Positions 55,808-64,000 of a stretch of 64,000 bases of DNA are shown piece after piece. This stretch comes from Alphaproteobacteria bacterium (lineage in GTDB: Bacteria; Pseudomonadota; Alphaproteobacteria; UBA8366; GCA-2717185): the NCBI GenBank assembly GCA_021774435.1, contig JAJFJB010000297.1:1-64000 (forward strand). Reading direction: 5' to 3'. A program made the translations under genes and the position numbers. Below the pieces are notes generated by a model. The model was given only the letters and a program-made list of their open reading frames with translations, was not told the origin of the DNA and did no database searches. Each line of letters begins with the position of its first letter. Position 1 is the stretch's first letter.

Positions 55808-56031
55808 CGTATCCGAGAAAGAGTAACCAGGGAACTATCGCGGCAATACCTTAAGATTGCGTTAACGTTAATAGAAATTAGCCTTAAAAATCGCGACCAC
55901 CCGCAAACGTGCTGGAAACAAGGGCCTCGACCCTCGCTCAACCTTGCAAATCTTAACTTAATATAGCGCCGTAACACCCGGCGGCGAACGGCGTGCTATG
56001 GAAAATGCTGGCGCGCCCGGGAGAAGAAAGT

Positions 56032-56179
56032 TCGAACCGCTTGTTCGAGATATTCGCTGAATGGAGTGCGATTTTGAGCGAATCTCGCGATGAATTTAAG
56101 GTCTCACCATCGTCATAAGCGGCTTTTCCGCGTTGAGACCCTAAGCGGACATCGTTAACTCGGAATATTTCTTCCGAGT
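56032..56179 (+). promoter_or_regulatory. Structured leader with consecutive hairpins upstream of cyclase 1
   Basis: tcgaac/gttcga; gaga.ttcgct/agcgaa.tctc; ggtctca/tgagacc; actcggaa/ttccgagt. Confidence 0.45.
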
Positions 56180-56255
56180 CTAGCGAAGAGCCGACTTACA
56201 GACCGTCTTCTCGCAGCGCGTAGATTTACCGAACATGCGCCGCTACACTTCCTGC

Positions 56256-58028
56256 ATGGTGGAGGGGACCCAACGCAGACTGGCGGCAATCGTTTCCGCT
56301 GACGTTGTCGGATATTCGCGTCTGATGGGCGCGGACGAGACAGGCACGCACGTTCGCCTCAAGGCCCGTTTCTCGGAATTGGTTGAGCCCAAAATTATCG
56401 AAAACGGCGGTCGCGTGGTGAAACTCATGGGAGACGGTCTGCTAGCTGAATTCCCAAGCGTTACAAACGCCGTCAATTGGGCCGTAATTGTGCAGACGAT
56501 AATTTCCGAGCTCAATACCAATGAACCTGAAGAACGGCGAATTGACTACCGGGTCGGCGTCAATCTCGGCGAAGTAATCATCGACGGGGACGACATTTTC
56601 GGCGACGGCGTGAACGTGGCGGCTCGTCTCCAAGAGATCGCCGAGCCGGGCGGTGTCTGTATCTCGGAAAAGGTCCATGCCGAGGTGCGCGGCAAGCTCG
56701 ACTATGAATTTGCGGATGGCGGTAGCCAATCGGTGAAAAATATCGCCGAGCCGGTCCATGTTTGGCGTTGGCCGTCTGTTGGGCGGGTGTCTGACCGGCA
56801 CTCTGTTGTCGAACAAGTAGATCCGTTACCGCTACCCGACAAACCGTCGATCGCCGTGCTGCCATTCGACAACATGTCGGATGATCCTGAGCAAGAGTAT
56901 TTCGCTGACGGCATTGCCGAGGACGTTATCACGGCGCTATCCCGCTTCCGTTCTCTGTTTGTGATTTCCCGCAATTCTTCGTTCACCTACAAAGAAAGTG
57001 CGGTCGATATTAAACAGGTCGCCAGCGATTTGGGCGTCCGGTATGTGGTGGAAGGCAGTGTCCGAAAAGCCGGCAAACGGGTTCGAATAACGGCACAGTT
57101 GATCGACGCGGCGAGCGGCAACCATCTTTGGGCTGATCGCTTCGACGGCAACTTAGACGATATATTTGAACTACAGGACCAAATCACCGAACGGATCGTG
57201 TTCGCGACGGCGCCTGAGATCGAGGCCCACGAGCGCGAACGTGCCCGGCGCAAGCCGCCGGAAAGCCTGGATGCCTGGGAACTTTATCAGCGTGGCATGT
57301 GGCACCTCTATAGGGTCACAAAAGACGATTTCAAGGCGGCGCGGACACTCTTCGACAAGGCGATAGCGCGCGATCCGGATTTCGCCCTGCCGTACGCGGG
57401 CATCGCGTATGTCTGTTTCTTCGAGGTGTTTCAAGGCTATGCCGTCGCCCATGATGAGGCCCTGGATCAAGGGCTCGCCGCCGGCGAGCGTGCCGTTGCC
57501 CTGGACGACAAGGACGGTTTCGCCCATCTTGCCCTCGGCCGAATGCTGCACCTTACCGGGCAAGGCGAGCGTGCCATTGCTGAACAGGAACGGTCGGTCG
57601 CCCTCAATTCGAGCTTCGCGCTCGGCTACTACGGTCTCGGAGCTTCCTTTGTTTGGTATGGTCGGGCGACGGAAGGCATTGCCGCGCTGGACATGTCCAT
57701 GCGACTAAGTCCGCAGGATCCAATGCTCTGGGCCATGCAGGCGATGCAGGCAGCTTGTTTCTTCAGTATTGAAAAATATGATGAAGCCGAAGAATGGGCT
57801 CGTAAGGCCGTGAATGTGCGTCCCGACATCTTCCAAACTCAGATTTATTTGGCAATGGCGCTTGTTGGGCTCGACCGGCTCAACGAAGCCAGGGCAGCCG
57901 TTGACGCGGCACGGCGAGCGCGACCGGGTCTATCCATTTCTGTTTTTCGCCATATCGTGCGGCACGCCAACACAGAGTTTCTGGAACCGCGCATTGCGGC
58001 CCTGCGCAAGGCAGGACTGCCGGAATAG
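56256..58028 (+). CDS. Class III adenylate/guanylate cyclase with TolB N-terminal-like domain and TPR region (paralogue 1)
   Basis: RRLAAIVSADVVGYSRLMGADE; VVKLMGDGLLAEF; GDGVNVAARL; KPSIAVLPFDNMSDDPEQEYFADGIAEDVITALS. Confidence 0.92.
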   Translation: MVEGTQRRLAAIVSADVVGYSRLMGADETGTHVRLKARFSELVEPKIIENGGRVVKLMGDGLLAEFPSVTNAVNWAVIVQTIISELNTNEPEERRIDYRVGVNLGEVIIDGDDIFGDGVNVAARLQEIAEPGGVCISEKVHAEVRGKLDYEFADGGSQSVKNIAEPVHVWRWPSVGRVSDRHSVVEQVDPLPLPDKPSIAVLPFDNMSDDPEQEYFADGIAEDVITALSRFRSLFVISRNSSFTYKESAVDIKQVASDLGVRYVVEGSVRKAGKRVRITAQLIDAASGNHLWADRFDGNLDDIFELQDQITERIVFATAPEIEAHERERARRKPPESLDAWELYQRGMWHLYRVTKDDFKAARTLFDKAIARDPDFALPYAGIAYVCFFEVFQGYAVAHDEALDQGLAAGERAVALDDKDGFAHLALGRMLHLTGQGERAIAEQERSVALNSSFALGYYGLGASFVWYGRATEGIAALDMSMRLSPQDPMLWAMQAMQAACFFSIEKYDEAEEWARKAVNVRPDIFQTQIYLAMALVGLDRLNEARAAVDAARRARPGLSISVFRHIVRHANTEFLEPRIAALRKAGLPE

Positions 58029-58072: not shown

Positions 58073-58198
58073 AGGCGGGCGACGGTCGCGATAAGGCGGC
58101 ATCGCCGGCGGTACGTCGAATGTTGAGGGAACAGTGGAAGTCGCACCTTTCCAACATCTGACTAGGACTCCGCACATCGCGACGGCTAAACTTACCTC

Positions 58199-59980
58199 AT
58201 GTCGGAGGTAACCCAACGTAGGCTGGCGGCCATCGTATCCGCTGATGTTGTCGGTTATTCGCGTCTCATGGGTGCGGATGAAACAGGCACCCTTTCTGAT
58301 CTGAATACGCATCGTTCGGAACTGATCGATCCCCTTATCAAGAAACATGGAGGGCGGATCGTCAAAACCACCGGCGACGGGTTGCTTCTCGAATTCCCGT
58401 CGGTCGTCGCGGCCGTGGAATGCAGCGTTGCCGTGCAAGACGGTATGATGGCGCGAAACGCCGCCGTCTCCGACGATGTCGCCATATGCTTCCGGATCGG
58501 CGTGCATCTCGGCGACATCATTGTAGAAGGTGATGATATTTTCGGGGACGGCGTGAACGTCGCCGCGCGCCTGGAAGCCCTGTCGGAGGCAAACGGGTTG
58601 GCTCTGTCCGACGATGCCTATCGACAGGTTCGCGACCGGATGGATATCGGATGGCAGGACGGTGGCGAACACGAGGTCAAGAACATCGCCCGGCCCATCC
58701 ACGTTTGGCGGTGGTCCGGAACGACAACACGAGAAATGTCGGCCACATCCAAGACGGCGGAACGATTACCGCTTCCCGACAAACCATCCATCGTCGTCCT
58801 GCCGTTCGGCAACATGTCGGGTGATCCGGAGCAGGAATATTTCTCCGATGGCATCACCGAAGACATCACCACCGAACTGTCCCGTTTCGACGAGCTCTTC
58901 GTGATCGCGCGCAACACCGCATTTACCTACAAGGATCAGAACCTCAACGTCCGCGAGGTCGCTCGGGAGTTGGGCGTTCATTTCGTCCTGGAAGGAAGCG
59001 TTCGCAAAGCGGGCAACCGGGTCCGTATCAATGTCCAGTTGATCGACGGCCAGAACGGTAATCATCTCTGGGCGGAACGATACGACGGCAGCATTGAGGA
59101 AGTGTTCGATTTACAGGATCAAGTGACCCAACAGGTGGCTAGCGCCACGGTGCCATACATCAAGGAAGCCTCCCTGGCCCGCATCCGGCGGGGCGACCGG
59201 ATCTTCGATGAAGCACATGACCTGGCTTGGCAAGCGTGGGACAATTTTCAAGATAGGTTGCGCGCGCCGCAATCATCTTCAATGCAAGCGGCCAAAGCAA
59301 AGGCGTATCAAGCAATTGCACTCAACGAGCGATGCCTCAATGCATATTCTACGATCTGTATGGCGACTTGGTTGGATCTTTTCCAGCAGTGGTCGGACGA
59401 TACCGAAGGGGGCATGGCGGAATTGAAACAGGCCGCCGAGACATTCGTCAGTTTATCGCCGAATTCCCATATGGCCCATTTTTGCCATGGCCTCTCGAAC
59501 ACGATTGCCGGTCATAGCGAAGCCGCGAGACAGGACTACAAGCACAGCGTCGCCCTCAATCCCAACGATGCCATGGTCCTATCTATGCTTGCTTGCACTG
59601 AGGCGTTGCTGGGCGACTTCGAGAAAGCCAAGGCGGTCGCGGCGAAGGCCATTCGGCTCAACCCAAAAGACTCGTGGACGGGCACCGCTTACCTCGCGCT
59701 GTCCCTTGTCGCTTTTATTGAAGATGACAGCGGGTTTCGTCACTGGACGGAGAAAGCCATTTTGGCCCAACCATATGCACCAATTCGCCGCACATTGATG
59801 ATTGCGCACGCGGCGGAAGTCGGCGACGAGGCGTTGTTGCGGGAACATCTGGAACATCTCAACAAGACCGCACCGCGGTTCCTTTCCCGGTTGCTCAGTG
59901 GAAAGAAAGAAACATTCAAGCTTCCCAAACACCGGGATAAATTATTGGATGCGTTGCGCAAGGTAGGCCCGCCAGAATGA
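58199..59980 (+). CDS. Class III adenylate/guanylate cyclase with TolB N-terminal-like domain and TPR region (paralogue 2)
   Basis: RRLAAIVSADVVGYSRLMGADETGT; KTTGDGLLLEF; GDGVNVAARLEAL; KPSIVVLPFGNMSGDPEQEYFSDGITEDITTELS. Confidence 0.92.
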   Translation: MSEVTQRRLAAIVSADVVGYSRLMGADETGTLSDLNTHRSELIDPLIKKHGGRIVKTTGDGLLLEFPSVVAAVECSVAVQDGMMARNAAVSDDVAICFRIGVHLGDIIVEGDDIFGDGVNVAARLEALSEANGLALSDDAYRQVRDRMDIGWQDGGEHEVKNIARPIHVWRWSGTTTREMSATSKTAERLPLPDKPSIVVLPFGNMSGDPEQEYFSDGITEDITTELSRFDELFVIARNTAFTYKDQNLNVREVARELGVHFVLEGSVRKAGNRVRINVQLIDGQNGNHLWAERYDGSIEEVFDLQDQVTQQVASATVPYIKEASLARIRRGDRIFDEAHDLAWQAWDNFQDRLRAPQSSSMQAAKAKAYQAIALNERCLNAYSTICMATWLDLFQQWSDDTEGGMAELKQAAETFVSLSPNSHMAHFCHGLSNTIAGHSEAARQDYKHSVALNPNDAMVLSMLACTEALLGDFEKAKAVAAKAIRLNPKDSWTGTAYLALSLVAFIEDDSGFRHWTEKAILAQPYAPIRRTLMIAHAAEVGDEALLREHLEHLNKTAPRFLSRLLSGKKETFKLPKHRDKLLDALRKVGPPE

Positions 59981-60214
59981 CCGGTTAGGGACATCTTGGG
60001 AACTTGGCCGATGCTGCCGCGCACATCTGAAGCTGGGGAAATCCAGACGTTTTACCGCTGAAAGCTGATATCACCGCGCCGATGTCAGATGTTGAAGGAA
60101 TTGCGGAAGTCGATTTGGATCGGCGCGAGTTTGTTTTTTTGGGTGATTGTGTGTTTGCCGAGGATGCGCCGGCGACGTCATTTTAGCCGCAGGGTCAAGG
60201 CAGAGGAGTGGGTG

Positions 60215-61096
60215 ATGAATTCCGAGACACCGCAACGAACGGTTATTTACAAAATCGGGATGACCGACAGCGCGCGTTGGGATCATTTCGTGGGGCGGGA
60301 CGGCGACGTCTTCGTCTGCACCCCGCCTAAAAGCGGCACGACGTGGATGCAAACCCTGTGCGCCCTGCTACTGGTGGGATGGGAGGATTTCGACATCAGC
60401 CCTAGTGCGGCGTCGCCCTGGTACGACGCAATTTTCGCAACGGTCGAAGAGGTGAACGCCGTACTGGCGGAGCAGTCCCACAGGCGTTTCATCAAAACCC
60501 ATACGCCGTTGGACGGCATCCCCTATGGCGCGGCCCATACCTATGTGGTGGTGCACCGGGACCCGCGCGACGTCTTCTTTTCCTTGCGCAACCATTCAGA
60601 AAATTTCATGCAGGAGGCCAACGTCCACATCCTCGGCGACGATATCGACGACGCCTTCCGGCGCTGGCTCGATCCGCCGGTGAACGAAGACGGAACGCCG
60701 AAATATTCACTACAATCGGTGATCCATCACTACCGCACATTTCGCCAATTCGAACATCTGCCCAATATCCATCTGTTTCACTATGCGGAAATGAAGCGCG
60801 ATCCCGCCTATTCCATTTCCCGGCTTGCGGCGATCCTGAATGTCGCGATCGAAGACAGCGACCTTCAAACAATCCAGCAGATCTCCAATTTCGGAAATAT
60901 GCGAAACAACGCGGATCAATTCGCGCCCCATGCGCATCACGGATTGTGGAAAAACAACAAACAGTTTTTCGCCACCGGCGACAGCGCGCAATGGCGCGAT
61001 ATTCTGAGCGAGGAATCCCTGAACTTATACGATAGCCGCGTCGAGGCTGCGTTGACGCCGACGGAAATATCCTGGCTCAACGACGGGCGGCGTTGA
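60215..61096 (+). CDS. Sulfotransferase family protein (copy 1)
   Basis: PAPS-binding motif VCTPPKSGTTWMQTL; VVVHRDPRDVFFSLRNH. Confidence 0.92.
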   Translation: MNSETPQRTVIYKIGMTDSARWDHFVGRDGDVFVCTPPKSGTTWMQTLCALLLVGWEDFDISPSAASPWYDAIFATVEEVNAVLAEQSHRRFIKTHTPLDGIPYGAAHTYVVVHRDPRDVFFSLRNHSENFMQEANVHILGDDIDDAFRRWLDPPVNEDGTPKYSLQSVIHHYRTFRQFEHLPNIHLFHYAEMKRDPAYSISRLAAILNVAIEDSDLQTIQQISNFGNMRNNADQFAPHAHHGLWKNNKQFFATGDSAQWRDILSEESLNLYDSRVEAALTPTEISWLNDGRR

Positions 61097-63030: not shown

Positions 63031-63279
63031 TTAATCCTTCTTGTCTGGGAACTTCGCGTCCCGAACCACTTCGCTTACATAGGATGAAAATTCTTCATAC
63101 AATTTATCGCGCCCAAATTTCTGTATCTCACGATGCTCGGGGTGGTCGCAAAACGAGCAGAGTTGTTCCTCCGATTCCCAATAATGGATCGAAACGCGCC
63201 CCCCATCGCCGGCGACGTATCCCTTATGCGTGATATAGCCAGACATCGACCGCGGAGTTGAGGGAATAGCGGAACTCAT
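63031..63279 (-). CDS. Short antibiotic-biosynthesis-monooxygenase-like (ABM) protein, possibly N-terminally truncated
   Basis: GGRVSIHYWESEEQLCSFCDHPEHREIQKFGRDKLYEEFSSYVSEVVRD resembles the C-terminal half of ABM proteins. Confidence 0.5.
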   Translation of the reverse strand: MSSAIPSTPRSMSGYITHKGYVAGDGGRVSIHYWESEEQLCSFCDHPEHREIQKFGRDKLYEEFSSYVSEVVRDAKFPDKKD

Positions 63280-63379
63280 CCGCGAGCGCCGCGAGTTCGC
63301 TATTTAGCATTAAGCAGTCCTGCAGCTTTGTCATTGGCGCGCATGTATTATTTGAACGGGAGACGTTAAACTCGGCGCC

Positions 63380-63454
63380 ATGGTGGAGAGAATTCAGCGT
63401 GGATTGGCGGCAATCGCGTCTGCTGACGTTGTCGATAAGGGGAGAGAGGAATGA
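63380..63454 (+). pseudogene. Remnant of a cyclase N-terminus, now a 24-codon minicistron overlapping the next start (ATGA)
   Basis: Reads MVERIQRGLAAIASADVVDKGREE*; compare MVEGTQRRLAAIVSADVVGYSRL of cyclase 1; 44/55 nt identical. Confidence 0.75.
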
Positions 63455-64000
63455 CGGAGGAACGACCTCGTCGAGAAACCCATTATTATAGCCAAATATC
63501 CGATTCCGCGCGGTGGGACCATTTTGCGGGCCGTGACACTGATGTTTTTGTCTGTACGCCTCCGAAGGCCGGCACCACTTGGACTCAAACCCTGTGCTGT
63601 CTGTTGCTGTTCGGCTGGCGTGAATTCGACATCAGGCCCTCCGATATCTCGCCCTGGTATGATGCGACTTTCGAGCCGGTCGAAGAAATAAATGCGTTGA
63701 TTGAAGCGCAGGATCATCGCCGCCTCCTTAAGACCCATACGCCCCTGGATGGTATTCCTTACAATTCCCAACGGACATACGTGACCGTCTACCGCGATCC
63801 GCGCGATGTGTATTTTTCCGCGCTCAATCATAAGGACAATGTCACACTGAACGACTTTTCGATCGGTCCGGAGGACGATATATCGGCGCCATTCAGGGAA
63901 TGGGTGCATGCACCGGCCGGAAATGGCGGCTCTGCCAGCGGCTCACTGGAGCGGTTCATCGTTCACTTCAAGAGCTTCAAACGGTTCGGCCATTTGGCGA
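63451..64000 (+). CDS. Sulfotransferase family protein (copy 2), truncated by window edge
   Basis: Reads MTEERPRRETHYYSQISDSARWDHFAGRDTDVFVCTPPKAGTTWTQTLCCLLLFGW..YRDPRDVYFSALNH; open to the end; close to copy 1. Confidence 0.9.
   Translation, partial: MTEERPRRETHYYSQISDSARWDHFAGRDTDVFVCTPPKAGTTWTQTLCCLLLFGWREFDIRPSDISPWYDATFEPVEEINALIEAQDHRRLLKTHTPLDGIPYNSQRTYVTVYRDPRDVYFSALNHKDNVTLNDFSIGPEDDISAPFREWVHAPAGNGGSASGSLERFIVHFKSFKRFGHLA

Follow-up and report, generated by a model that had tools for sequence, protein, structure and literature searches.

The window, the whole stretch of 64,000 nucleotides that was analysed here, carries on its forward strand two intact class III cyclase genes of the leaderless type. 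Cyclase 1 (56256..58028) matches PF00211 and has a TPR region, with the hexamer TACACT 6 nt before its ATG; cyclase 2 (58199..59980) also matches PF00211 and has TAAACT 6 nt before its ATG. Downstream, on the same strand, lies sulfotransferase 1 (ST1, 60215..61096, PF00685), a paralogue (53% identity) of sulfotransferase 2 (ST2). The latter, identified as Sulfotransfer_1 (Pfam PF00685, E 3.8e-37), occupies positions 63451..64000 of the forward strand and runs on to contig position 64342; its start at 63451 is backed by alignment to the paralogue from residue 1. ST2 is preceded by a reading frame of 24 codons at 63380..63454 of the forward strand (MVERIQRGLAAIASADVVDKGREE, followed by a stop codon), which we call the minicistron and which is putatively leaderless.

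Two dispersed repeats also occur in this region. One (55978-56187) lies upstream of cyclase 1, with 83-92% copies on several contigs from relatives in the genus and one in contig C453 of the same genome. The other, of the gttgagggaatagcggaag type, is found upstream of cyclase 2 (58116-58150), ST1 (60045-60140) and the minicistron (63257-63308), as well as near other cyclases and cyclase remnants of the family.

A cyclase remnant ahead of ST2

The first-pass annotation had described the minicistron as a relic of a cyclase N-terminus, in which 44 of 55 nucleotides match cyclase 1 before the similarity stops abruptly. Both the count and the abrupt end were reproduced: the segment 63380..63434 of the forward strand (start codon plus first 18 codons) shares 44/55 nt with the beginning of cyclase 1 (ATG at 56256), and homology breaks off after codon 18, at 63434. 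By codon position, identity amounts to 31/36 at positions 1 and 2 and 12/18 at position 3, a pattern close to that between cyclase 1 and cyclase 2. The relic matches cyclase 2 at 40/55 nt, while the two cyclases match each other at 46/55 nt; the relic and cyclase 2 are thus at a similar distance from cyclase 1, and there is no need to derive the relic from a copy of that gene.

The similarity is well beyond chance in a proper alignment, from DNA as well as from a profile. When the entire genome (7.3 Mb) was searched at the DNA level, the match between relic and cyclase 1 (80%, E 1.6e-7) was second only to the query itself, and a profile built from nine cyclases, with the relic left out, found it at 63362-63434 (43 bits, E 2.2e-10). 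The closest intact gene, on contig C91 of genome G008, is 78% identical over 68 nt, beginning about 13 nt 5' of the ATG. The relic carries the N-terminal RRLAAI.SADVVG motif of class III adenylate/guanylate cyclases with a TPR region (PF00211) and differs from these enzymes in being without the rest of the catalytic domain; no complete class III catalytic domain (PF00211) was found in it, and the minicistron gave no Pfam match. Five residues among 19 are altered, and the substitutions look relaxed. Judged from these alignments, the identification of 63380-63434 as the leftover 5' end of a class III cyclase gene is well supported.

Downstream of the homology end lies a non-cyclase junction of 16 nt, ataaggggagagagga (63435..63450, forward strand), which contains the Shine-Dalgarno sequence of ST2, aaggggagagagga, inside the minicistron. 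The TGA of the minicistron overlaps the ATG of ST2 as ATGA on the same strand, at the positions previously described. The relic had also been proposed to supply the ribosome-binding site of ST2. This part is not supported: the cyclases have no Shine-Dalgarno sequence and that of ST2 lies past the end of homology, so that the ribosome-binding site is not cyclase-derived. Since a relic would reach this ATGA in frame without a stop with a chance of about 25% (1/4), the overlap is weak evidence for selected coupling. Translational coupling between the minicistron and ST2 through ATGA is possible.

A predicted leaderless promoter

We aligned nine cyclases from the window's genome and the family, one of them cut by a contig end and one a late pseudogene. 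The sequence CTA[A/C]ACT is invariant 6-7 nt 5' of the ATG in all nine, and no Shine-Dalgarno sequence is present. The relic has the same signature, with the -10-like hexamer TAAACT (63367..63372, forward strand) 7 nt 5' of the minicistron ATG; box, spacing, start codon and reading frame have all been preserved, and no Shine-Dalgarno sequence precedes this ATG. Overall, the signature occurs at a rate of 7e-4 per ATG in the sequences examined. Cyclases of other alphaproteobacterial MAGs (GTDB) show the same arrangement upstream, a few with single-base variants, and it is absent upstream of more distant cyclase relatives from Mesorhizobium, Bradyrhizobium and Phyllobacterium.

Homology among paralogues mostly starts near -20, indicating that, of the promoter, it is the -10 region that is conserved, and the spacing between the -10 box and the ATG predicts a transcription start on the A of the ATG and hence a leaderless mRNA. 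No -35 element was recognised at the relic. The relic may therefore offer a core promoter and a leaderless start codon, not a ribosome-binding site. A candidate degenerate cyclase promoter upstream of ST1 (around 60152-60180, tttgccgaggatgcgccggcgac), which resembles the promoters of cyclase 1 and of the relic on contig C160, fell below the profile threshold and was rejected.

Recurrence of cyclase 5' ends in the family

The profile built from the nine cyclase genes, which spans -26 to +57, was run on 12 family genomes. These are mostly fragmented (the window's genome, G000, consists of 527 contigs with 6% estimated contamination); the window relic sits 1 kb inside its contig. With a cut-off of E<=1e-4 for strong matches, and with relic counts based on the profile search alone, 19 strong matches were obtained, comprising 11 cyclase genes (intact, pseudogene or contig-cut) and 8 orphan N-terminal fragments, 7 of them independent. 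The orphans are the window relic (63362), G000:C517, G000:C160, G003:C1, G002:C31, G006:C187, and G002:C84 with its orthologue G001:C116. Cyclase pseudogenes with stops or frameshifts were also encountered (G000:C526, G001:C232, G001:C233 and G006:C143), which points to ongoing cyclase loss in the family.

Of the seven independent relics, four lie ahead of an unrelated gene in the same orientation, encoding a sulfotransferase, a TPP enzyme, an amidase or an HpcH/HpaI-type aldolase. The other three (C160, C517 and G003) run towards the 3' end of a convergent gene, which indicates that relics persist even where there is no gene for them to drive. The orthologous relic of G001:C116 (L205) and G002:C84 (L204) lies about 100 nt upstream of the TPP enzyme gene.

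Weaker relic matches were found on G000:C73, G000:C87, G001:C94 and G004:C540 (E 0.001 to 0.09, C94 being the least secure); all four retain a correctly spaced -10 box or a close variant, and weaker relics stand before co-oriented genes for an ABC permease, an aldo/keto reductase and a dienelactone hydrolase. On C73 (L208, 2517-2561) the leader frame reads MTDGNQRRLSKISP up to its stop, TACACT lies 8 nt before its ATG, and the ABC permease start follows 20 nt on. Three further weak matches (L211, L212 and L214) have no -10 box and were treated as chance. The start codon is lost in C517, in the relic before the TPP gene and in C94, so that only a promoter role would be possible there. The -10 box was retained exactly in 5/7 relics that have a downstream gene vs 1/3 that have none, a difference that is not significant (p 0.5).

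For comparison, two internal cyclase segments were searched at the same threshold (E<=1e-4). The segment around PDKPSIAVLPF, of equal length, gave 0/45 short orphans and that around GDDIFGDGVNVAARL at most 2/32, one a decayed fragment and one at a contig edge; with the 5' profile, 7/18 were independent orphans (Fisher p 6e-5 and 0.007 against the two segments, respectively). Because related non-cyclase proteins also contain the PDKPSIAVLPF motif, the denominator for that segment is enlarged, so that the absolute counts (7 vs 0 and <=2) are the safer comparison. The three profiles were compared by their similar column identity (81, 85 and 82%); their equal information content is set by the model builder. 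Taken against these controls, the orphan counts indicate that cyclase 5' ends are left behind preferentially.

Origin of the arrangement

The first-pass annotation had further suggested an ancestral order of cyclase then sulfotransferase. No orthologue of ST2 was found in the genus (best match 48% identity), a contig scan with ST2 as query returned no relatives, and among the homologous sulfotransferases that were examined with their flanks, none has a co-oriented cyclase upstream. A cyclase ahead of a sulfotransferase was otherwise seen only at ST1, in the same genome. On G004:C400 an orthologue of cyclase 1 is convergent to a distant sulfotransferase, and the orthologues of the flanking Usp genes in G004 and G003 sit among other genes, with no syntenic locus. 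The ancestral order at ST2 was thus not confirmed.

The explanation that we favour, and consider rather probable, is that a cyclase was deleted and that its promoter and initial 18 codons became fused ahead of ST2, whose transcript they now probably start. A class III cyclase with a leaderless mRNA, starting at the A of its ATG, would once have stood upstream of ST2. The deletion would have run from codon 19 almost up to the ribosome-binding site of ST2, removing the enzyme while sparing the core promoter, the leaderless ATG and the 18 codons. The leftover would now start the ST2 transcript with a leaderless minicistron that stops on the ST2 ATG; ST2 itself would be translated from its own Shine-Dalgarno sequence, possibly helped by ribosomes ending there. 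The relic origin, the kept -10 box and spacing, the frame, the overlap and the recurrence in the family are observed; the deletion event, promoter activity, leaderless translation and coupling are what we infer from them.

The relic could instead be an inert scrap, a decaying cyclase 5' end that by chance lies ahead of ST2 while another promoter drives the gene, and we hold this to be possible, if distinctly less probable. The relaxed look of the substitutions and the relics that face convergent genes fit this reading, as does a single sigma-70-like site upstream (63074-63103), about as many as in shuffled sequence. Against it, orphan 5' ends are far commoner than orphan internal segments, and the window relic keeps its -10 box, spacing, ATG and frame. 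Moreover, the region of the relic before the TPP gene shows 1 difference in 200 nt between G001 and G002, against 97.5% identity overall, which lends weak support to constraint.

Alternatively, cyclase 5' ends, each consisting of the promoter and the first codons, might move by copying as small dispersed units, one of them having inserted before ST2 where a full cyclase never stood. Several relics do occur in one family, dispersed repeats are found close to cyclases and to the relic, and C517 and G004:C540 share 80% over about 100 nt. Breakpoints, however, vary among relics (about codons 5, 10, 19, 26 and 45) and common ends were not seen; a site-specific break at codon 19, where four relics end, was rejected on the same grounds. 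The relic on C87 is an internally deleted cyclase before the aldo/keto reductase gene, with cyclase C-terminal sequence directly behind the promoter. We therefore regard copying as improbable. Still less credible is a functional small peptide or attenuating leader: the 24-codon frame is open with its cyclase start kept, and the 19-codon relic of G003 ends at the same residue, but RNA structure at the minicistron does not exceed that of shuffled sequences (z -0.41), no peptide is conserved among relics beyond the cyclase motif, and there is no Pfam match.

Discussion

Leaderless mRNAs are common in alphaproteobacteria, with 375 in Caulobacter crescentus (PMC4117421) and 171 in S. meliloti, as cited in the same paper. 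The relic resembles these in its predicted start at the A of the ATG and in having no Shine-Dalgarno sequence, and differs in that the start is predicted from the -10 spacing only and lies in a gene remnant. Gene pairs overlapping as ATGA, with termination-reinitiation, are likewise known (PMC6728339); the relic stop and the ST2 start overlap in the same co-directed way, whereas the upstream partner here is a relic of 24 codons and the coupling is putative.

If the deletion that we favour did occur, ST2 would also be a case of promoter capture, in which a gene gains a promoter by deletion or rearrangement through loss of the intervening DNA. Two features would set it apart: a leaderless start codon is part of the captured piece, and one gene family appears to have acted as donor more than once. 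More generally, and more tentatively, we propose that in this alphaproteobacterial family the proliferating cyclases may serve, through their leaderless 5' ends, as a recurrent source of promoters and leader minicistrons: once a cyclase is lost, its promoter and start codon would remain and come to control an unrelated gene downstream.

Most work on promoter capture draws on laboratory selections. The genomes examined here would offer several natural instances with one recognisable donor family in common, which would make the frequency of working promoters left by lost genes measurable. If this proposal is true, a captured cyclase promoter may carry over cyclase regulation to the downstream gene, and where leaderless starts come along, the captured unit would also alter the translation of the next gene.
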